From positions 1-64,000 of the forward strand of contig CAMPDV010001071.1 in assembly GCA_946699065.1 (NCBI GenBank): a stretch of DNA of 64,000 nucleotides, read 5' to 3'. Shown piece after piece: positions 10,695-63,494 of this stretch (position 1 is the stretch's first letter; each line of letters begins with the position of its first letter). The translations under genes were made by a program, and so were the position numbers. The notes under the pieces were generated by a model. That model saw only the letters and a program-made list of their open reading frames with translations. It was not told the DNA's origin and ran no database searches. This stretch comes from Loxodes magnus. Its lineage: Eukaryota; Ciliophora; Karyorelictea; Loxodida; Loxodidae.

Positions 10695-13600
10695 TGTCCA
10701 TTTCTTCAAGTAAACCTTCAGGTAATAGAAATTCAGCTCTTATTAATTAAATATCTTCTCCATTTTTCTCAACATTATCTCTTATTCTTCTGTCTTCTAC
10801 ATATCTACGCTTTATTAGATCTTTATTGCAAGTTTCCTTTATTTTTCTTACATATCTTGCTAATATTTGTTTCTAATTATTTTCTTCTTAATCAAGTTTT
10901 TATAAGTTCATAAAAAATATCCTTTTCCTGCTCCATGGTATTTTCTTTTTCATTCAATTTTCTTTTCTATTTATCCTTTTTTCTAATATATATTTTATAT
11001 AATCTTTTATTATCAAGTCAGCTTTAGATCTTTTTAACTCTTCTTAGGTTCTAATAAATTTCTCGAATTTGGCCGTACTTCATATTATACGAAATAGTTC
11101 CATTCCTTATCTCTCTACTCATATTGCTTTTAGATTTCATATGCATATTTATCTTCCTGCTTTGTATTCTTGCTATTCTGCTATAGTAAGCCTTTTATTT
11201 TCTAAAAATCATTGCAGATAGGATATTGGCTTGTCACAACTAGATGTCTTTCTTTTAAACAATCCTAGTCCCCATTATATATCGTTCCTATTCTAAATAT
11301 GTAGCATATTTCTTCTTTTCTGTTCTATTGTAATTCCGAAGTTGAGTGGTCCTACTATATATTCATCAAATAATGTCTTTCTTTACTGTTATATTGCTAT
11401 CATTTACTCCTTCTATATATTCTACATATAATCTATATTCACATATTACACCAATAATGCTTTTCTTTTTTCACCTATTATTACCATCGTTTACAAATAT
11501 TTCTTTTTCCTCAATTTTTAATTAAAAAATGTTTTCGTGCAATATAATTAAATATAAATTTCTCTTCTTTACTTAGATTTAACATTAATCCGTCTGCCTT
11601 TTTTTCTTAGTTACCTAGTAATCTACCTCTTAATCTCAACGTTTTTTGTCATAGGTAATTATTAAATTTTATAACTACAGTTTATGTTCTAACATATCAT
11701 TTTACACTTAAAAAAAGGCATTTATGATATTCGTAAGGATCTTATCTACATTATTTCTATTTGTTCCATTACTTATTTTCCTTCAAATTATTCGCAATAT
11801 GGAATCACTTCTGTTCCATAACTGAAAATTGAGTTTGCGAAAGTTTTAATCATTATTCCTGAGTTATACGGTATTAATCCCTTATTCATTGTTATTTTCC
11901 CCAGTTACATGTTTACATCTTTTATGCTTTTCTAGCATATTCCTCATGTTTTTTTCAAAAATGATGTTCTTTTCTATTATATGACTAGGTTCTAAAAGGT
12001 CGTTACTCTTTTGATCCTTAAATTTCCCACCTCAATAATATTTCTATATTTTTTCATTTACTTTTTTCTACTACTTTTCATATCATTTTTTTTATAATCT
12101 GCAATTTCTAATTTATTCTTTTCTGCCCATGGGGTTAAATTTTCGATTACTTCCTCTAATTATTCCCATTCACTTATTAAGGCTAGGTCATCTGCTTATG
12201 CAAAAACATCCTGCATATATTTCTTTATAAGGCATCCCTCTTCGTTTTTATACTCTATCATAATTCCTAGCTTTTAATCTTCCAATCTTTGAAGAAATCT
12301 TGCTCTTATCAAGTTAAACAGTCTCAGCAACGTTATACTTCCCTATTTTAGCCATTTATTTTTCGCAAATGATTTTGCTATTTAATCATTGATTTTCAGG
12401 AAAAAAAATGGTAGAAGGGTTCAAGAAAGGTTTTTATACCACCTCCTAAAAAGGGGAGAGAAAGTAAGAACCCTCATCTCTAACTAACACGTCTTCTTCC
12501 TAGAAATAATCTTCTTCTCAAAACCTTCAAGAATAATAGACTCAACTAGGAACTTCCAGATCAACTTAAAAGATGGGACAAAAGCGCCAAAAGGCTACAT
12601 CGATGACACCAACTGAAGAGGAAGGACCTAGAAAGGTGCTGGAGACGCAAGAAGCAGCAGCCGTGCGAGAGTTTGCGATGCCACAGTTCCAGGAAGAACA
12701 GGCATAAATTTTAGTCGCATTCTCTGACCTGAATGAGGAAGTAAAGAAGCTACGATTAGAGAATAGAGCTCTAAAAAATCAAGTTACTGAGCTCAAGGAA
12801 TGGAAAGAAAGCTTCTGGGAAGTCTACGATCGAGAGTAAAACACTTTCTTCAGGGAAATGGGATTGCTACAGCAGAGAACAACTGTGCTTGAAGAGAACA
12901 GTAAGTAGCAACAGTAGACAATTCAAGATCCAATGGACATAGAAGGAGCTATTAATTTACCGAGGAGTCCAGACAAGAAATGAATTAGGAATAAACCAAG
13001 ATGTTTTGTATGCAAACAAACTGGACATAAATATAGACAATGTTAGAAATTGAAATTAATTAAATAATAGTACTGGAATAGAAAATAATAAGAAAAATAA
13101 TAGTACTAATATTAGGATAAGATTAGACGAGAATTCTGTAACTAATTTTATCCGTCAGGAGGTCAAATCTATAAACCGAAGTGGTATACAATCTAAGGCG
13201 ACTGAAGAAAGAGTCCTGAAGGGAGCTGGTTCCAGCCAGGTTATCAAACTGGTCCTGTGAACACGATGTTGAAAGTCCTCCAAGTTCACTAAACTCCAAT
13301 TTAAACTTTTTAATTTAATTAATTTATTCATTGATTTTCAGTCTATTTCTTCTTCTCAATAGAAATTTGCTAAAAGTTTAATTATCTATTCCAGTATTTT
13401 TAGATCGTTTAGGATTTGTTATATAAAAAATAATTTAAATAGGGTGGAAAGTCCTTTCCTTCGGATACTGCTTGGAGGCCCAGTAAGGCAACAAAAAAAT
13501 GAGCTCGGAAGGAGAATAAATTGGAGGAAGAGAAACTAATAACAAGAGAAGGAAGATGTGACAAGCTGGAGAACTCTGAATACCAGGAGTAAACTTTCTT

Positions 13601-14600
13601 CATCATAGGTCGGGGAAATGTACCCGTAATCGCATATTGCATCCTATGCTTTGGAAGGAGAAATTACAGGTACGTACTGAAGGAAGAGAAAACAAGGATA
13701 GAGAGACATCAAAAAATTTTAAACATTAAATAAAATTAATTTAAAGAGCTGCACACCAACGAGAGTGCTACGCGCTCTAAAATCCAATTTATTTATTTAT
13801 ATATCTTTTCTTTGCCTTGAGTCATAAGCTTTCAAATATTTTTGAATATTATATTATGTATTGTTGTTTCATCTCCTAAGGTATTACTCCCTCTTAAATC
13901 ATCTTAGCTATCATTTTGCAAGTTATTTCCATTAGATTTTCCCACTTACTAAAATTTTTCTATTTATATTTAGCAGGTCCAGCTACTTTTTATTTCGTTA
14001 ATTAGTTATGCTTTCTCAAATTTCATATTATTTATTTGTCTCTTATTCAAGAATTTGTTAGTAACGTATTATCACCATCTTCATATAAATACTATCATTC
14101 ATCCCTGAAAGTCTTAAATTCTTCTTTTCTTCTTTTGATAAAGTTACTCTTTTAATTATATTTTTATATAGCAGGTATTTTAATTTCTTCCACATTTCTG
14201 TCAGATTTCCTTTATTTATAATTATCTATAAATAGGTTAAGTTAGTTTATTTTTTTCTTGATTAAATATATTCTTGTCTTGTTCTTTGGTATTCTCTATA
14301 TTTCTCGTTTTATTGATTTTCGTTTATTTTAATTGTTTGCTGCATTTTCCGAAAATTTTTATACGCTAATTTTGTTGTTTCTGAGTACTTATATATCTTA
14401 AAATTTATGTTTAATTGCTCCATATACCATTTAAACTCTTTTTTATATTTTTTTCTTTCATCATTTATAAGTTTATGTACCGTTTAGGCTATTAATTTCT
14501 TCTTCTTTGACATTTTCTTGTAGAAATCTTACAAATTATTCTCAATCTCTTTTTATTTAATAGTGGGTAACCTATTTTTGTTATCTTTTTGGTTTTCTAA
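10695..14600 (-). CDS. LINE A reverse transcriptase, interrupted
   Basis: The RT is recognisable by LKQGSITLLRLFNL (motif around B/4, plus 12345-12300) and by DVFAQADDLALIS (motif C, plus 12187-12201). The two Asp are present, but the preceding aromatic residue is Gln encoded by TAA. The C-terminal part to about 10695 ends LLPEGLLEEMDIF and TGA. In the truncated relative a C-terminal knuckle CFFCNDARENERHIIKNC is intact; here that stretch (about 11230-11190) is out of frame. Two insertions split the ORF at 12386-13341 and about 13431-13802. RT copies element RNA into the genome. Confidence 0.75.
12386..13341 (+). mobile_element. gag-only retroelement nested in LINE A, 14-bp target duplication
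   Basis: It is flanked by identical 14-bp copies of TCATTGATTTTCAG at 12386-12399 and 13328-13341. The minus-strand RT reading frame of the host LINE is restored when one copy and the insert are removed. The leader (12418-12570) contains TTCAAGAAAGGTTTTTATA, matching the LINE A leader near 17098-17060. Only one ORF is present, and the 3' hairpin of other families is absent. It is either a 3'-truncated or a non-autonomous element. Confidence 0.85.
12573..13334 (+). CDS. gag-like ORF1 with coiled coil and CCHC knuckle
   Basis: The first ATG gives a ~253-codon frame if TGA is read through at 12981 and 13203. It stops at a TGA inside the target duplication. Residues ~50-110 form a coiled coil (EEVKKLRLENRALKNQ). 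The DPMDIE motif lies near residue 122, and a perfect knuckle CFVCKQTGHKYRQC starts at Cys144. A Gln/Tyr-rich basic tail follows. Codon use is less AT-rich than neighbouring DNA, which suggests a young insertion. Both internal TGAs lie before or after the knuckle with homologous sequence continuing in frame, so they are sense codons or recent mutations. Confidence 0.75.
13431..13802 (+). mobile_element. SINE family A, copy 1
   Basis: This is a ~370-bp unit shared with 45461-45840 at high similarity. The head AGGGTGGAAAG...GAGGCCCAGTAAGGCAAC is followed by a purine-rich body containing TCATAGGTCGGGGAAATGTACC. The 3' hairpin is at 13744-13778 and a TTTA-repeat tail ends the unit. No protein is encoded. 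The 3' end matches that of LINE A, so retrotransposition by LINE A enzymes is inferred. It is inserted in LINE A; TTATATA on both sides may be the target duplication. No convincing Pol III A/B boxes were identified. Confidence 0.8.
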
Positions 14601-22464: not shown

Positions 22465-24155
22465 TAAATTAAACCATCAAATTTATCATTTCTTCCTCAC
22501 TCCTTTTTTCTAAATTTTCTTTGTCTATAATTAAAACACTTACCTCTACCTTCTGATTATTATTACTATCTACTGACCACAACCTCACCAGCCCATCATC
22601 AGATCCAGATGCCACCCATCTTTTGTCTTAACTAAAGGCAATCGAATTCACACATGCTGTATGTCCTTATAATGTTCTTATGCACTATCCTGTTTAAAAC
22701 TCCCATATCTTAATCATCTTGTCTGCAGAACCAGATATGATATATTCATTGTCAACTGAGATACATACCGATCTAACTGAGTTAGAATGTCCTGACAACG
22801 TCTTCTTACAACTTCCAGTTGTCCAATCTCATATTTTTATTGTCTTTTCTAAGCTTCCTGAAACTATTCATCTTTAATCACTTGAGATGCATACCGATCT
22901 AACTCAGTTAGAATGTCCTGATAACGTTTTCTCGCAAGTTCCGCTTTCCCATTCTCATATTTTTATTGTCTAATCACTACTTCCTGAAACTATTCACTTT
23001 AAATCACTTGAAATACATACTGATTCAACTGAATTGGAGTGTCCTGATAACGTCTTCTTACAACTTCTACTTTCACATTCCCATATTTTTATTGTATCAT
23101 CTTTGCTTCCTGAAACAATTCACTTAAAATCAAATGAAATACATACTGATAAAACAGACTTAGAATGGCCTGAAAATATGAAATCTATAAAGATATTTAA
23201 ATTTTACCTTTGCTATTCATGAAATTGAATGGAATTTATTCACAATTATCTGTTAGGATATTAGATTCTTCCAAGGGGATTTACTCATTTATTTAAGATT
23301 TATGAATTTTTTATCTGATTCCAACATTAGCCTGATTCCCCTTAATCTCTCTCAAAGCTACTTGAAATCCTTTTATTACCTCCTCTATTGTCATTCTCTA
23401 ATCTGAATCCAAGCCCAACATCCAATTATCAAATCTTAAAATTCTTAAGGACAATCTTTTGGTAATTACTCTCTTTCACCCTCAAGCACTCCCTTTTCTA
23501 TAAAATATTACTATGCTTCAGTAAATGGTAATTATCTCGAGACTATCTCCCAATAGATAATTCCCAGGGCATATATATCTGATTACTTACTGTATTTAGG
23601 CCTTAAATTCAACAATTCAGGAGCCATCCAACGTATATTCCCTACTTTTGATATTATCTCCCTTGATTTTGATTCCGTCTTAACTTTCGACAACCCAAAA
23701 TCCGTTATCTTTGCTTTCAGATTCATATCAATCAAAATATTATCACTTTTTAAATCCCTATGTATTATATTCTTTTAGTGAATATGCTCCAATCCCAATG
23801 CTATGTCCAATCCTATCTAATATTTCTACTATCATGATAATTCGCACTCACTATGTAACAACTATAACAAACTTTATGGCATCAGCTCCATCACCAAACT
23901 TAAAGGTTATTTACAATAACCATATACTACTATCACATTCGGATGTCTCATCTTATGTGTTATCGATATCTCCTTCTCCATATCTTTTCTCGCCTATTAA
24001 GTTATATTTTAATTATACAACTCTTTTATTGCCACCTCTATACTTCCCATCCACATACCTTTATATATAATCCCAAAGCCACCCTTACCTATCTCGTTTA
24101 TTTTTACCAACTAAGAAGCATTGATTATGTAATCCTTATCTATAGCCGAAACCAT
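22465..24155 (-). CDS. protein kinase-WD40 fusion (TKL-like kinase)
   Basis: The ATG is at 24155-24153. The kinase domain has IGKGGFGIIYKG, VAIKEL, HRDLKSDNILID, ITDFGLSK and RWMAPEL, so all catalytic residues are visible. ELS(TGA)QQKY replaces the conserved LSW of TKL kinases. A one-base loss near 23405 separates GCW from LDSDQRMTIEEV, and a further shift near 23200 precedes the WD region. At least five WD repeats follow, several with an exact 126-bp period, with GHSNSV, WIVSGS and TIKIWE signatures. TGA stands for Trp in KWIVSGS (three times) and IKIW (twice), and once at a Ser. The last repeat ends VRLWSV. The WD propeller probably recruits partners for the kinase. The shifts could be errors or decay. 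Confidence 0.75.
22740..23200 (-). repeat. 126-bp tandem WD-repeat units
   Basis: Near-identical segments recur every 126 bp, with matching anchors at about 22763, 22889, 23015 and 23141 (plus strand, TTAGAATGTCCTGA-type). Each equals one 42-residue WD repeat. The high nucleotide similarity implies recent duplication or gene conversion. Confidence 0.85.
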
Positions 24156-24199
24156 TATTTTATTTTTAGTAAAATTTGGACTGAATTATAATAATTTTA

Positions 24200-40999: not shown

Positions 41000-43700
41000 C
41001 TTTTTACACTTGCTCATTAACCAAATTGTTTCAATACCACTTACACTAGTTCACCATTTTGCTCCTAAAATTTAATTTCTTCTGCGAAGCAAATTTGAAT
41101 GAAAATATTTGACTCTTTAGTCAATTTATTTTAGTAATCTACGAGTAGGGAAGTTAAGATTAATGTAATTTTGGTTGTAAGTTATAAGTTTAAGTAAATC
41201 GTAATTCTTGAAACCTTTAAATTCTTCTATTAAATCTTACAGAGCTTCGCATTAAGAGATATGTTAATAGGTATCTTATTATCCACAAATGTAAATTTCA
41301 GAGTATTTTATTTAATAGTGTCTTTATTACAAATCATACTAAAACTTGTAACTAAAAGTCCTTTCTTTGTAAATGGATACTATTTCTCTAATCATTGTCT
41401 TGTTTAATATTGTGTAAGTATAAGTTGGAAATTTCTGTTAGTCAATGTTATTATCTTATTCTTCAAAATAAATGCTTGCGGTAGGCATCGCACTCATTCT
41501 TCCTATTGCATCTTAATAAAGCTTTTATTCTAATTTATTTCAAATTTTGTTTAAATATTATTTGCTGTTACTAGCATCTTAAAGGTCTATTTGAAAATGC
41601 CTAGTCATTTATTTTAAATTCTTGAAGTATATGAGGTTATTACTCTTGTTTTGTTAAAAAGAAATGCTACATCAGAGTTGGGATTCGTTTATGATTCAGT
41701 GTAAAGTTTTATATAGAATTTGAAGAACCTCATTGCAATGTAATATTCAAAAGGTAACCAATTCAAGTCAATAAAGCAAGATTCATTAAAAGTTGAATTA
41801 AGAATTTGTAAAGCACATCTTGCTACTTTTCTTTAGCTAGTGGTTATATCATGTTTTATTTTTTTATACCCCGAAGAATAGCCCAAGGAATTACTTCTAA
41901 CCCATACTCTGCCTTCGGTATTATAAATGTTCGAAAAATTAATTTAAAGTTCTAAGGAGTAATAATTTGATATTTAGATAATTTTTAAATAGATCCACTC
42001 ACATATTTTTTGTACTTCATCGAAACTTCTTAAACATTGAGCTTTATAGTTTTCATTTTCATTAATAACATATCCTAGATAGGTGACATTTTTTGATATT
42101 TATATTTGTTAATTATTTAATTTTATATTGAAGTCTAAATTTTCGTGTTTTTAGTTCTTATTTTTAAAGCAGATATATTCACATTTTTCAGCATTTATTG
42201 TCAATTTAACTCAACCAAATATTTCGCATGTGACCTAAATTAATTAATTCATATTATCTTCGTTAGATAGCAATAACAAGTCATCTGCCTAAGTTTTAGA
42301 AAAAAATAAACGTCCACAAATTTTAAAGTCAAGTTGTTTTTAAAATGTTTCCAAATATCTAATTGCAATGTCATAGAAGATAATAGAGAGAACTGGACCA
42401 TGTGAACTTTCTTGTAAAACTCCATTGGTATAATTCAAATTTCTCGATAATATTCCATCCAAAAGAAATCTAACATCTAGATGTGAGTAAAATGATTCAA
42501 GTTAATTTATTAAAGCAGGAGGAAACTTAATTCTACGTAAATGTCCAAATAGCAAATCCCTGCTAATGGTATCGAACATTTTTTCTACATCTATAAGAGC
42601 AGCAAGAAGATGTTTTCCTCTTCCTCATCTCCTATGTAAGTCAATAATTGATTATAAAGTTCAAACTTGGTGTATTGTTTATCTCTTCTTTAAAAATCCT
42701 TGCTATGAAGGGTGTATGATCTTACGTTCATAAATATATCCATAAATTCTTTAAGTGATTATCTTATCATATATTTTGAGAATAGCATTTATAAGTGCGA
42801 TAGGCCTTCAGTTCTTTCAATTACTCTTTGATCCTTTTTTATAAATTGGAAGGATTCTAACTTGTTTGAGTTAATTTGGAATTGTATGTTTTCTTAACAT
42901 ATTATTCATAAATCTTTAAAGTACTTTATAAATTTCATTACTAGCATATTTAATGAGTCCGGCTTTGATACCATCTGCTCCTGATGCTTTATTATTTGCC
43001 AATTTCCTGATGGTTTATTTAACTTCTTGTAAGTTTATTAAACTAAATTCTTACTAATAAGAAGCTTTATGTTATATTAAAAAATCAAAATTTTTTTAAA
43101 TTTTATCGATCTTTATGTTACATTTCTTCAACTCATCTTCATCAATATTAGTATGTTTATTAAAAACATTATCTTCTCAGTCATTTACAAATTAATTAAA
43201 ATTTTCAGAATCCATATACATATTATTTCTTTTTCTTGGATTTAGGAGTTTTCTTGCTTATTAAAACATTTTAGAAGATGATTAGTTCATTATTTCTCTA
43301 TCTTCTTTGGCTTATTTAACTTTGAATATTCAATAATTATGCTTATATCTATTAAATTTTCTATTTTTTTCTTATGCTAGTTAAATAACTTTTTAGTTAA
43401 CTCTTCCATTCTAAACTAAAGCTTTTTAATAAACTATTGTGCTTATTTAGCAGCATTAAAACTATTTATTATCCTTCAAGGTAGCCAGTTTTATTTTGTT
43501 TTTTAGTAGACTTGACCTAGTACTTAATTGGCATTTTGACTTAAAGTTTTTAGAATATACTCATATTACATATCTAAATTATCTTCTTCTATTAATTCAA
43601 AATTATTTAAACATCCTTCAAATTTAGCTTTATATTCTTCTCGTATAACTAAATTCTAAAGTTTATCAGTCTTGAAATTTACTCTAGGAACAAGAATTGG
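41000..43700 (-). CDS. LINE 2 reverse transcriptase
   Basis: Motifs occur in order: NNKASGADGIKAGLI, RILPIYKKGSKSN(TGA)KN(TGA)RPIALINA, QQGFLKKRQTIHQV, LLAALIDVEKMFDT (Asp of motif A), GVLQESSHGPVLSIIFYDI, KTQADDLLLLSN (motif C; Gln from TAG replaces the aromatic residue) and INAEKCEYI. Five TGA codons occur in about 300, each where Trp is plausible, and no TGG was found in that part. The C-terminal region from about 42.1 kb is less certain. Confidence 0.8.
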
Positions 43701-44500
43701 AGGATTTCTTTTGATATTTTAAGTTCTTAATTTTAGCAATATTCGGAAGTGATCTGTATCAAGTCCACTACTTTGTAGAGAAGTAAAATCAGATAATTGG
43801 TTATTGTTAATGTGATAGTTTGCTATAATATAATCATTGCAATCAGTTTTATAATTTGATCTACTTCTAAAAGTATCAAAACTTTAATCGTTTATTATTT
43901 GTGAATCATATTCTTCAATGAATGTTTGTAATCTTTAAGCATTATCTTATAAATTGTGTCTATTATTACTTCCATAACCTTATAAGAGAGTATTAAAATC
44001 TCCCATGAATATAATAGGATAATTCCCAACTACATTAAGAATAAGATCTAAGTTTGAATATGATTATTCTTTAAATATTATAGGGGTTTTTCATCTGTTG
44101 GCATATAACATGTTGTGAAATAAATATTGTTTATTTATACTAGTAGAAACCTATCATCTTATTCTTTAAAATCTATCTCTATTTGTCTCGAATCAAGATC
44201 TTCTTTAACAATTAAGCAAACTCCGCCAGCTCTTTAATTTTTGTCACAGTTTTTATAAAATGCTCTATATCCTTGAATTTAAATAGGAACTAAGACTTGA
44301 TGTTGACAAGTCTCATTGATAGAAAAAATATAAATATTGTAATAATTTGTAAATTGTTAATTGCTTAATTATTTAGTTGTAATTTAATTTATATTACTAT
44401 GCGCTAATTTTAATGTATTTTAACTTGCTCCACCTTTGATCCCTGGTTCATAAATACAAAGTACCTTTTATCCACTTTAAATTTAGATATGAAATAAATT
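43700..44500 (-). CDS. LINE 2 APE-type endonuclease
   Basis: The core reads SINETCQHQVLVP (catalytic Glu), RAGGVCLIV, FTTCYMPTDE, IIFMGDFNTLLQGYGSNN (GDFN) and GLDTDHFRI (the DH catalytic pair, usually SDH). All expected residues for nicking are present except that Ser is Thr. About 190 codons are free of TGA. Together with the RT below, this makes LINE 2 the best-preserved enzyme set in the window. Confidence 0.8.
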
Positions 44501-44549
44501 TGGAGCTTAACTTAATGAGTTTTCTTTACATATTATTATGAATAAAGTC

Positions 44550-45195
44550 AGTGTATCATATTATTATAATAATTTCCTATCTATTTTAATTGATATTGAA
44601 TTACCATCACAAGTAACACTATTTAATTTACAAGAGAGCGTAATAAATCTATTTTCAATTATAGTAAAGAGATTTTATTTTTATCAGTGCTTTGATTTCA
44701 TGTATTAAATGAATTTTTCACTTTTAAAATTATATTTTTTTATTAATTCTTCAATATCAATATTTTACAGTCAAATATTATATTACATTGGACTAAACAT
44801 TTCTTAATTTAATTAAGTTTCTTTTCAATTTCTCTTCCCATTTTGTGTTAGTATAATCTAATTAGTAAAATGAGATGAAAGTTTATCATTTCTTATGATA
44901 AAATCTTGTACGTCTATTATGTAATTTTATTGTTTTTCATATAACTCATTGAATTGAATTGTCTAAATACTGAATTTTATTTTAAAGGCTTAAAATTTAT
45001 TTAATTGTATTTTCTTACTTTTATTTCTAAAGTTCCGATATTTTAGCGAAAACATCAATTTTTCGTTCTATCTCACATTCATTTTTGCAAATTAATTAAA
45101 TTTTGTTTCTAGTTATTCTATTCTCTTAATTGATGAGTATTTCTTTTCATTTTTATCATTAGGTGTTAGATATCAGGTACGCAATCTTTCTTTCG
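44550..45195 (-). CDS. LINE 2 ORF1, coiled-coil protein
   Basis: It begins near MQELERKIAYLISNTQ (about 45195) and continues as a Lys/Glu/Gln-rich helix (EIERKIDVFAKISEL near 45050). The N-terminal stretch matches the ORF1 at 6.57 kb. No zinc knuckle was located with confidence. The frame further downstream is uncertain. Confidence 0.45.
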
Positions 45196-45460: not shown

Positions 45461-45840
45461 ATAAATAGGGTGGAAAGCCCTCTCCTTCGGATGCTGCTTG
45501 GAGACCCAGCAAGGCAACAAAAAAATGAGCGCGGACGGAGGATAAATCGGAAGAAGAGAAGCCAATAACAAGAAAAGGAAGATGTGACAAGCTGGAGAAC
45601 TCTGAATGCCAGGAGGAAATTTTTTTCATCATAGGTCGGGGAAATGTACCCGTAATCGCATATTGCATCCTATGCTTTGGAAGGAAAAATTACAGGGACG
45701 TACCGCAGGAAGAGGAAACAAGGAAAGAGAGAAAAGAGAGACCTATAAAAAAAATTTTCGACATTAAATAAAATTAATTTAAAGAGCTGCGCACCAACGA
45801 GAGTGCTACGCGCTCTATAATCGAATTTATTTATTTATAT
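45461..45840 (+). mobile_element. SINE family A, copy 2
   Basis: Closely similar to 13431-13802 across the whole length: the same head, body with AGCCAATAACAAGA, TCATAGGTCGGGGAAATGTACC, hairpin at 45781-45816 and TTTATTTATTTATAT tail. Differences are scattered substitutions, so both copies derive from one source. Its minus strand is open for 72 standard codons by chance. Confidence 0.85.
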
Positions 45841-54718: not shown

Positions 54719-54719
54719 T

Positions 54720-54790
54720 AGCGAGGAGTAGTTTCGATCTACCGACCTCTGGGTTATGGGCCCAGCGCGCTTCCACTGCGCTACCCCGCT
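54720..54790 (-). tRNA. initiator tRNA-Met (CAT)
   Basis: The 71-nt cloverleaf is complete: acceptor AGCGGGG/CCTCGCT with the eukaryotic-initiator A1:U72 pair, D stem GCGC/GCGC, anticodon stem CTGGG/CCCAG with loop CCCATAA (CAT), and T stem with loop ATCGAAA. The three G:C pairs in the anticodon stem and ATCG in place of TTCG are hallmarks of eukaryotic initiator tRNA. No intron. Internal A and B boxes are present in their usual places. It is the only clear tRNA gene in the window. Confidence 0.95.
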
Positions 54791-59404: not shown

Positions 59405-59575
59405 TACTATCTAGTCGGAACCACTTCTTCCCTCAGCGTCATCGATATCTCCTGCTGGGAAAAGTGCGTTAATCATCTTCCTAGATTGGGTTAGAGTCTC
59501 GTTTGTTGGAGCAAACGAGTAGAATCTCCTATAGAAGTGATCCTGTACGAGTACAGTCTTACTAATATTTTTCTT
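59405..59575. ncRNA. candidate structured RNA island
   Basis: A GC-richer 170-bp island with perfect stem-loops. CTCGTTTG...CAAACGAG at about 59492-59519 (8-bp stem) and CTGTACTCGTACAG at about 59551-59564 are the clearest. It has no 3' LINE hairpin. It may be a SINE-type head or a stand-alone RNA gene. Confidence 0.35.
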
Positions 59576-61435: not shown

Positions 61436-63494
61436 TTCTATTTATCCTCATAATACTTTTTTAAAATCTTACACCCTTTACTATTTAAACTTCATACCCG
61501 CTTTAAATCTTTATTCAAATTTTACACTCTTTTATTCTTAATTAAAATACCACTTAATGCTATTTATTATTCTTACAGTCTTAAATTATTGAGTATTTTA
61601 ATTAACTTACATACTATGCAAAATCAAATCTTAAAATCTGTATGATTTTCCCATCGTTAACTTACAATCTAAATTTTTATAATCTTTCACTTACAGTCTA
61701 TTTTATTAATCATATTTTCAAATTACAGTCTTCATCAATAATAAATTTCCTGTTTACTCTCTTTATAATTTTTACAATTAAACTTACCAACTAGAGCATT
61801 TTTATTTTTACTTACTCCCTAATTATTTATCAACTCTTATACTTACAAACTATATTTGGTATCAATTCTAAATACAATCTGTTTTTATCACTTTTGTCTT
61901 ACTCCCTCGAACAATTAATTTTACTTCCTATATAATTTTATTTATTAACTTACCTGCTGTTTTGTTGTAGAATATTCTACTTACAGGCTATATTAAAAAT
62001 GAACTCTTTCTTACTGTCTTTATTTGATTAATCATTCTGCTTACAATCTTTGCGATTATAAATTTTACTTCCTGATATAAGTTTTCTTATTTACTTCCTA
62101 TAGATATTGTAATTCCTTTTACTTACTGCCTACGTTATCAGTTTGTAAAATTACCATCTATACTTATTTCAATTTTATTCTTACCTTCTAAGCAATTTTT
62201 AGTTCTGTCTCTTACCATCTTTAAATTTAGATAGTTATCGTTACCTCCTATGATAATTATAAACTTTGATACTTACATTCTTTATACATCTAATTTTATG
62301 TTTACCCTCTGAATAAAGAGTCATTTATTACTCTCTACATTAAGAATCAGTCTTTTTCTTACAATCTAATTTAATAGTAAATATTTACTCAACTTCATCA
62401 GCAACATTGACCCATTTATAATTCCCAATTACTATAAAGTTGCATTATTTTCTAGATCTTAGTTATTATTTTCTATGAAAATATCGATGTGATTTTAATT
62501 AATTCCTGTTTAGCTTTGTATCTTATTTTTTATTTGATATATTTGTTCATTTTATGCACTTGCTATCTAAATTCTCTTATTATTAGGAGACTTTATTGTG
62601 ATTTAAAACAAGTTTGTTTCTTATTTTTAGTCATGGCGTTTACTTTATTCATAATCTAGATTAAACTGCTTAATCTAATTTATCTAGCTTTATAATTAAG
62701 ATATCTAATCCTGATAATATCTATCTTTATTTTCACTTAGAATTAGCTAGCTTTATAATTATTCCTCTAGAGCTCTTTATTTACTGTAAGCTTCTTGATA
62801 TTCAGAAGTCACTATTTATATTTACTATTCAAGTCTTAATATTAGATCTTGCTAGTAATTTATTATTTCAATATTCTTTATATTTTGCTGCTTTAATATC
62901 AAATGCTCATCAAATATGTTTGCCTAATTCTAGTTTAGTTTTATTTATTCTTGTTTAGCTAATTCTAATTTTTCTTTACCTTCTTGGATTAGATTTTTTA
63001 AATGAAAGCTTGATTAATTGTCTATAATTTTGGTTATTTCACCTATTCTTTTAAGAGTCCAGATGATGCTTAGGCATATTTCTTTATTTACATTAGCAAC
63101 TTTTATAATACCTTTTGCATTTTCATACTATCACATAACTAAGATTGTTCCACCATCTTCATAACTGTTAGTTATACCTAATACTATGTCTTAGTTATGT
63201 TCTTAAGCACTTACTTTAGTTCTAATTCTAGAAGTTTTAGAGTAGTTAAGTAATTATTTGGTACTTCCTTTTATTACTTTACTACTTCAATCACCTCTAT
63301 GTCTTTCTACAGTTCTAAAGGACTAACTTAGAATATTTAATTACAATCAAATTGAGCACATTAGATTTAAAGGGATTTTTGAAGCTAATCATGCAAAGGT
63401 AGCATAATAAGTGCTGACATGGTAGAATCATAGGAATCTTTTTTCATTCATCGAAGTTTTCCTTACAAGCAATACACTTGAGAGCTATAGACAT
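61436..63494 (-). CDS. RING finger-coiled coil-ubiquitin-like protein with microexon 3' region
   Basis: The ATG (63494-63492) opens MSIALKCIACKENFDE, then PCQHLLCYLC, giving the CxxC and CxHxxCxxC part of a RING finger; TGA follows FDE. A one-base shift after a run of A near 63385 is needed to reach the last RING-like Cys residues (QCAQFDC), and another to reach the main frame. The main frame has QDIVLGITNSYEDGGTILVM(TGA)QYENAKG, then a coiled coil (QDLILRLEQQ, RALEEQLQSQL). At 62615-62390 a ubiquitin-like domain follows: NLFQITIKSPNNKRIQIA, IKNKIQSQTGINQNHIDIF and LEN..TLQQLGIINGSMLLMKL. RING plus UBL suggests an E3 ubiquitin ligase. The exon then ends at GTAAAT and enters the microexon array. 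Confidence 0.6.
61469..62367 (-). other. array of ~26-nt introns separated by 3-nt exons
   Basis: On the plus strand TTAC-NNN-CT occurs exactly 28 times, and four near matches (about 61494, 61554, 61631, 61872) fill the gaps. Spacing is 19-34 bp, mean about 29. On the minus strand this is AG-NNN-GTAA: an intron 3' end, three bases, and the next intron 5' end. Sequence between units is unrelated, so it is not a satellite. NNN varies freely and the flanks do not. In minus order the triplets begin ATT, AGA, AGG, AAT, GAG, ATG, AAG, ATG, GCA, GAA. The array follows directly on the ubiquitin-like exon, whose end leaves phase 1. Confidence 0.85.

Follow-up and report, generated by a model that had tools for sequence, protein, structure and literature searches.

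The minus-strand region 62388-61456 of the DNA analyzed here (the window, a 64,000-nucleotide stretch of Loxodes magnus contig CAMPDV010001071.1) very probably encodes the 3′ end of a gene, in which tiny GT-AG introns would be spliced out serially to give the variable C terminus of a member of a RING-ubiquitin-like (RING-UBL) family.

Array anatomy and host gene in the window

From 62388 to 61456, as delimited by motif search and parsing, 31 stretches, all of which start with GT and end with AG (31/31), alternate with 30 exons of exactly 3 nt each. GTAA begins 28 of the first 30 introns, whose lengths over the whole array run from 17 to 52 nt with a median of ~26 nt, the value given in the initial annotation of this DNA. 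That annotation had placed about 32 single-codon exons at 61469 to 62367; the three-base exons hold good (we count 30), but the limits lie further out on both sides, and the exons do not amount to one codon each, the introns being in phase 1.

Within 61469-62367 there are 30 exact matches to AGNNNGTAA on the minus strand, 2 of which overlap a neighbor (AGTAAGTAA), leaving the 28 nonoverlapping copies originally counted. First-order Markov sequences of equal length with the composition of the window gave a mean of 0.32 matches (maximum of 4 in 2,000 trials), in line with the earlier estimate of less than one chance match, and sequences with the array's own composition gave a mean of 1.3 (maximum of 6). 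When gaps of 0 to 15 bases were scanned on both strands, a long chain (17 at a spacing of 18 to 36) appeared at a gap of 3 and on the minus strand only; at all other gaps, chains never exceeded 2. The longer pattern GTAAN{15,27}AGNNNGTAAN{15,27}AGNNNGTAA has 21 matches in the window, every one inside the array, against an expectation of 0.02.

Intron 1 (62366..62388, 23 nt) is in phase 1; other arrays have a phase-1 donor at the matching place after the UBL sequence. Introns of 52 nt (61614..61665) and 48 nt (61529..61576) look like fused units in each of which one triplet has decayed, the first perhaps by loss of one GT donor (..ACAG ATT TTAAG..) and the second perhaps by a 1-nt loss in the triplet (..AAG TG GTATT..); our final parser, which allowed introns of up to 48 nt, read the 61614..61665 region otherwise, as a 27-nt exon. 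The last intron (17 nt) and the terminal exon, TATTATGA (61448..61455), were picked by us among four possible acceptors; in phase 1 this exon reads L-L-stop (TTA TTA TGA), and the ends of two other arrays, L152 and L156, resemble it (TGTTATGA and TGTTGTGA, respectively). The spliced tail of the window array, in phase 1, is predicted to be NQKEWDEDGRRNYTSGRNFWIENYYLYQSGLL-stop.

The ubiquitin-like exon said to precede the array is there: 62389..62608 (minus strand, like all parts of this gene) matches PF00240 with an E value of 7.7e-6 (26 bits; curated cut-off, 25.4), and its final nucleotide, the A at 62389, is codon base 1 ahead of intron 1. Farther upstream lie a region that is coiled-coil-like by eye and translates as a single open frame with TGA as W (62609..63190) and a RING-like gene start (63364..63494; MSIALKCIACKENFDEwKKIPMILPCQHLLCYLC.., with one TGA as W) that matches zf-C3HC4 with an E value of 0.005, under the curated cut-off. 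The frame changes after the RING-like segment, where we saw no GT-AG intron by eye, and this change reflects either an assembly indel or a decayed copy. The window copy may be a decaying family member, because its end, LYQSGLL, has diverged (it is without the family's W, and two further residues differ) and because its RING part carries the frame change; the evidence is stronger for the family as a whole than for this copy.

Related arrays across the assembly

In the genome assembly (705,730,643 bases), the three-unit motif has 16,111 matches, compared with 41 for the reversed pattern, and the triplet series TAT-ATC-GTG and xxG-AAT-GGG have 88 and 302 matches, respectively, each against 0 for the control. 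We compared the window with 44 stretches (L151-L194), of which L168 is merely the window's neighbor and L171-L190 were picked via TAT-ATC-GTG (the tail-chosen loci). These 20 tail-chosen loci hold a mean of 16.5 motif matches each, which extrapolates to ~980 arrays, and 19 other loci with a match hold a mean of 5.7, which extrapolates to ~2,800. By extrapolation, then, arrays number roughly one to three thousand, a total in which single matches can be chance and which may be too high if copies stand uncollapsed in this repeat-rich assembly. Viral contigs with a pattern of two or more units yielded no long chain: among the 120 matches listed, the longest chain was 2, the length guaranteed by the pattern, in 105, 3 in 14, and 4 in 1.

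Inspection by eye of the upstream frames of 12 loci revealed readable UBL-type sequence in 11; in L167, a RING-like stretch was visible and no UBL was seen. A UBL-type Pfam family was matched by 7/9 stretches searched (6 above the curated cut-off and L155 below it); the nine include L162, queried in the wrong frame, and L154, which gave no UBL match though similar by eye. In these other arrays, the UBL exon usually closes ..M(K/E)(L/F/W) A|GTAAG, which is a phase-1 junction. In the search for RING domains, L170 matched zf-C3HC4 with an E value of 1.3e-5, above the cut-off, and L155 did so below it, while 6/8 stretches were without a match, several of them having been queried in the wrong frame. 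No protein homologues were found at the thresholds used. The uninterrupted tail TTATAYMGNGARTGGGGN, in the one codon set tried, has 0 occurrences in the genome, and another split pattern of the tail has 1 match.

L153 and L170, both left unparsed by the final script, make up a subfamily with RING and then UBL-like sequence, mid-array introns mostly of 24 nt, and the tail triplets TTA AAT GGG AAA. At L169:130-2526, a long array region consists of about eight broken chains with diverged introns and many non-GTAA donors and is perhaps a decaying array. The later array of L193 is near-identical to that of L192, with an unalignable upstream half, suggesting a truncated or recombined array.

Exon length and reading phase

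A dynamic-programming parser that applied an equal penalty to exon lengths of 0 to 12 nt recovered arrays from 31 of the 45 candidate loci (the window plus L151-L194) and left 14 unparsed. Of the 877 exons obtained, near-duplicate loci included, 786 are 3 nt long, 35 are 0 nt, 32 are 6 nt, and 24 have other lengths; none has 1, 4, or 5 nt. Exons of zero length are AG|GTAAG junctions, present in some arrays. Outside the window, the GT and AG ends were required by the parsers and are thus given by construction, as in part are the stops, since an in-phase stop earned a bonus. The array introns have a mean length of 28.5 nt in the final parse, and 195/921 have lengths divisible by three (the copies are not independent). 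RNA-mapped introns of L. magnus, as described in the text of PMC11441545, have a mean length of 19.3 nt, with 93% at ≤25 nt and multiples of three depleted, and the excess of the array introns over this mean counts against our main explanation, the shared scarcity of multiples of three in its favor.

Comparison of the arrays suggests that each triplet straddles two codons, giving the final two bases of the first and the opening base of the second (phase 1), so that the UBL frame would continue through the triplets. Read in this way, E-W-G-L ends 7 of the 11 arrays that were not tail-chosen (the window, nine parsed arrays, and L152); the exceptions are the window itself, L151 (VWGL), and L158 and L161, which also differ. 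E-W-G is found in 16/18 tail-chosen parsed loci, where Y and R were fixed by choice and E, W, G, and L were not. The codons for G-L vary (GGA-TTG, GGA-CTG, GGG-TTA, GGT-TTG in L152, and GGT-CTT in L154). A start of the form N-x-(Q/K)-(G/E)-W is present in 17/28 arrays of an earlier parse (two being identical copies), although outside the window it mostly needs a 6-nt exon, for which a parser allowing 0-nt exons reads 0 nt instead; the window start, NQKEW with W encoded by TGA, equals that of L174, where W is encoded by TGG, in the earlier parse, and in the window it needs 3-nt exons only. The final parse shifts phase in L154 and L182, and the earlier one does so in L182 and L185. Phase 0, in which a triplet is a codon and the tail reads IRRNEMKMAEEITPQEG.., was set aside after comparison with other arrays; its attractions are a 23-nt first intron that is readable in frame and a slight, weak preference of codon usage (4.4 nats in the window, against 1.8 and -0.9 for the other phases).

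Coding signal and alternative explanations

The strongest alternative is that the array is a single long intron, or 3′ untranslated region, dotted with decoy or ratchet sites and that the triplets are leftovers absent from the mRNA. GT-AG ends by themselves do not prove inclusion, the exonless junctions of some arrays are ratchet-like, and, except near the ends, triplets mostly resemble one another between arrays no more than the introns do. Nevertheless, synonymous differences between triplets are commonest in the phase that the UBL exon dictates. Of the tail codons that differ among 10 arrays that were not tail-chosen, the share that are synonymous is 0.225 in phase 1, 0.094 in phase 0, and 0.053 in phase 2; the shares are 0.194, 0.116, and 0.015, respectively, among 16 distinct tail-chosen arrays and 0.220, 0.155, and 0.046 among 27 tails that include near-duplicates and misparsed rows. 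The signal for phase 1 grew stronger once tail-chosen loci were left out. UGA is likewise rarest in the UBL-set phase: over the last 20 array codons, it occurs at 2/497 in phase 1, 21/502 in phase 0, and 62/497 in phase 2 (raw rates, with no correction for composition at each exon position). Such scarcity fits a genome in which UGA is avoided within coding sequence shortly ahead of the stop, as the text of PMC11441545 describes for L. magnus. Moreover, the triplets of the window are GC richer than its intron interiors (36.7% versus 17.3%), the last three triplets are common to arrays, and an in-phase stop, partly by construction, follows the array.

The conservation of those last triplets is narrow. 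In 10 arrays that were not tail-chosen, the last three are 0.59, 0.64, and 0.81 identical, compared with 0.50, 0.57, and 0.64 for the introns that follow them, and in 17 tail-chosen arrays the values are 0.65, 0.85, and 0.81 versus 0.68, 0.66, and 0.71. Triplets are therefore clearly better conserved than introns at the second and third places from the end but not beyond the selected part. At positions 4 to 9 from the end, in arrays that were not tail-chosen, triplets are 0.27 to 0.43 identical and introns 0.55 to 0.57, which is no signal either way, because unrelated triplets would give ~0.33 and unrelated AT-rich introns about the level observed. Higher values of tail conservation obtained at first (0.76 to 0.94) are discounted, as the rows had been chosen by the very motif, and remeasurement confines the conservation to the final two or three triplets. 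On balance, we consider it improbable that the region is a long intron or untranslated region.

Ciliates excise short DNA segments, and the segments between the triplets might be removed from the DNA in macronuclear development in the manner of internal eliminated sequences. Such excision is most unlikely, because the arrays sit in an assembly that appears to be macronuclear (somatic), to judge from its 705.7 Mb against the 706 Mbp (MAC) and 848 Mbp (MIC) given in PMC11441545; in addition, a section heading of that paper says that classical IESs were not detected, and the ends of the segments are GT..AG. Nor is there much chance that a tandem satellite or protein-binding array lies by accident after UBL genes: many arrays do have tandem units with near-identical spacers, but the spacer cores of the window are barely more similar than shuffled ones (mean local score of 5.89 versus 5.68; standard deviation, 0.11) and yet the AG-NNN-GTAA rule holds, exon lengths stay at 0, 3, and 6 nt, and the UGA and synonymous-share signals follow phase. 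The initial annotation had named these three alternatives (a decoy-rich long intron, DNA excision, and a binding array); each fares worse than serial splicing: the first leaves the coding signal unexplained, the second is unlikely in an apparently macronuclear assembly, and the third leaves the phase unexplained. Its leading proposal, three-base exons between tiny introns, gains support across the genome from the keeping of phase, the UBL exon that leads in, and the peptide ends predicted to be shared in one phase.

Proposed serial splicing

Under serial splicing, the host pre-mRNA would carry dozens of tiny GT-AG introns three nucleotides apart, which the spliceosome would most likely remove successively. 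Each ligation would place the next GTAAG donor beside a long 5′ exon, as in recursive splicing, and an intron size limit may discourage the skipping of units: to skip one would require an intron of ~60 nt, above the size that PMC11441545 gives as usual for this species, with the frame kept regardless. Read onward in the UBL frame (phase 1), the joined triplets would run to a UGA stop, giving, in many related genes, fairly conserved ends that flank a variable segment. An array may store codon cassettes, because gain, loss, or exchange of an exon-plus-intron unit would leave the frame intact.

For the published L. magnus gene models, introns supported by short-read mapping were removed and predictions overlapping low-complexity sequence were singled out, as the text of PMC11441545 describes; in our judgment, 3-nt exons could hardly be placed by short-read mapping. 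The main text of that paper has no mention of ubiquitin.

Variable array middle

Away from the ends, triplets vary far more than the introns between them. In 226 units from 19 arrays with a 29-nt intron at ≤4 changes from the consensus, per-site heterozygosity is 0.616 for triplets and 0.045 for introns, the latter held down by the consensus-based choice of units; in a looser class of 274 units, the values are 0.620 and 0.131, respectively. Eleven units of L184 have no intron variation and a triplet heterozygosity of 0.628, and intron variation is higher (0.151) in L174 and L186. Adjacent units with cores ≥90% alike (68 pairs) have 42% of triplet bases in common. One intron, GTAAGTTAAAGTTTAAGGTGAAAATGAAG, has 150 exact copies in 13/31 parsed arrays, and 15 different triplets come directly after it. 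Eight triplets (ATG, ATT, AAT, GGA, CAT, TGA, AAA, and ATC) account for 165/180 units in runs, and Y, Q, N, D, K, E, and W abound in the variable segment (306 residues from 19 arrays).

Among the near-identical copies L191, L192, and L194, 3/90 exon sites and 16/929 intron sites vary, so nothing in these copies shows fast mutation of triplets; one of them lacks exactly two units (62 nt), a clean in-frame loss. Identical neighboring triplets are slightly enriched (33/163 versus 26.1 expected; P = 0.07), as are triplet pairs of the form abab (8 versus 3.4 expected; P = 0.03), and no dependence of the third base on the next two bases was apparent (P = 0.74). Copying and shuffling of exon-intron units, with the introns staying alike, fits these observations. 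Diversifying selection on the triplets is possible, and homogenization of the introns by gene conversion, or by reverse splicing and reverse transcription, is a guess. We put forward only tentatively, as a conjecture that may well prove wrong, that the arrays form a codon-cassette diversity system, in which triplets are reshuffled by frame-safe recombination while the introns stay near-identical and serial splicing of 3-nt exons reads them out as a Y/Q/N/D/W-rich segment on at least a thousand RING-UBL proteins. More speculatively, such a system might be compared in its logic to an immune or self-recognition repertoire.

Relation to known systems

The micro-exon genes (MEGs) of Schistosoma are alike in that they form an expanded family, encoding variable proteins, with series of very short exons whose lengths are mostly divisible by three (PMC10526429), and the feature by which genes of that type are recognized, tandem micro-exons in multiples of three after longer exons, is found here in gene anatomy, as distinct from mRNA. 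As described in PMC10526429, however, MEG exons are mostly of 15 bp (6 to 81 in the text and 3 to 81 in the abstract), with 10 to 20 per gene, introns of 0.1 to 5 kb, 35 genes, and secreted proteins, whereas the Loxodes arrays have exons nearly all of 3 nt, introns of ~28 nt, many more arrays, and ciliate UBL genes as hosts. Recursive splicing likewise juxtaposes acceptor and donor and implies stepwise removal, and the Loxodes arrays have some 0-nt exons, but ratchet points are mostly in long Drosophila introns, and the exons included are longer (51 nt in Ubx), according to PMC8605326; dozens of consecutive steps, each adding three coding bases, are predicted for Loxodes. Isolated micro-exons include a single-nucleotide exon in Arabidopsis (PMC4674806) but occur singly, where Loxodes has dozens in series. 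Stwintrons and introners, like the array introns, are sequence-similar introns multiplied in a genome, but those described in PMC8469720 and PMC9860276 are nested introns or elements in many genes, and the Loxodes copies stand three bases apart in one gene family. The introns of karyorelicts and heterotrichs are also very short and depleted of multiples of three, and serial 3-nt exons are not described in the passages of PMC11441545 consulted. We found no description of such exons in ciliates among the titles and abstract openings listed in our searches of open-access papers. Tiny introns, micro-exons, and recursive splicing are each known; a large family laid out in consecutive three-base exons is what we did not find described in those searches.

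If transcripts confirm this layout, the spliceosome joins tens of consecutive 3-nt exons in one message, and minimal exon size, splicing order, and intron definition would become directly testable. The arrays would also be a natural case of introns serving as frame-safe spacers, with evolution proceeding in three-base steps. Such genes readily escape short-read mapping or are dismissed as tandem repeats, so similar arrays may hide in other genomes.

Genetic code and other features of the window

In the window, TAA and TAG are read as Q and TGA as W. A 137-residue stop-to-stop piece of a reverse transcriptase matches with an E value of 6e-7, which falls to 5e-22 when the frame is read through TGA as W, and repeats at 23110-22481, WD40-like by eye, have W at TGA. 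This assignment matches the karyorelict code of PMC11441545, the main text of which ascribes this code to L. magnus, along with tiny introns and an abundance of LINEs. The repeats are part of a kinase-WD40-like gene (by eye; 22481-24170, minus strand), in which the frame shifts by 1 nt toward the end of the kinase part. Two frames of this gene are joined (by eye) by an ordinary 23-nt GTAAAA..TATAG intron, so introns resembling those of the array are used elsewhere in the window. A LINE-like element at 41001-45000 (minus strand), probably a decayed copy, matches an endonuclease (PF14529) in one frame and a reverse transcriptase (PF00078) in another. Near-equal translations (..HHRSGKCTRNRILHPMLWKEKL..) at 13490-13708 and 45534-45740, both on the plus strand, mark a dispersed repeat. 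The window also contains a methionine tRNA gene (54719-54790) and a U3 small nucleolar RNA (59409-59560), both on the minus strand.
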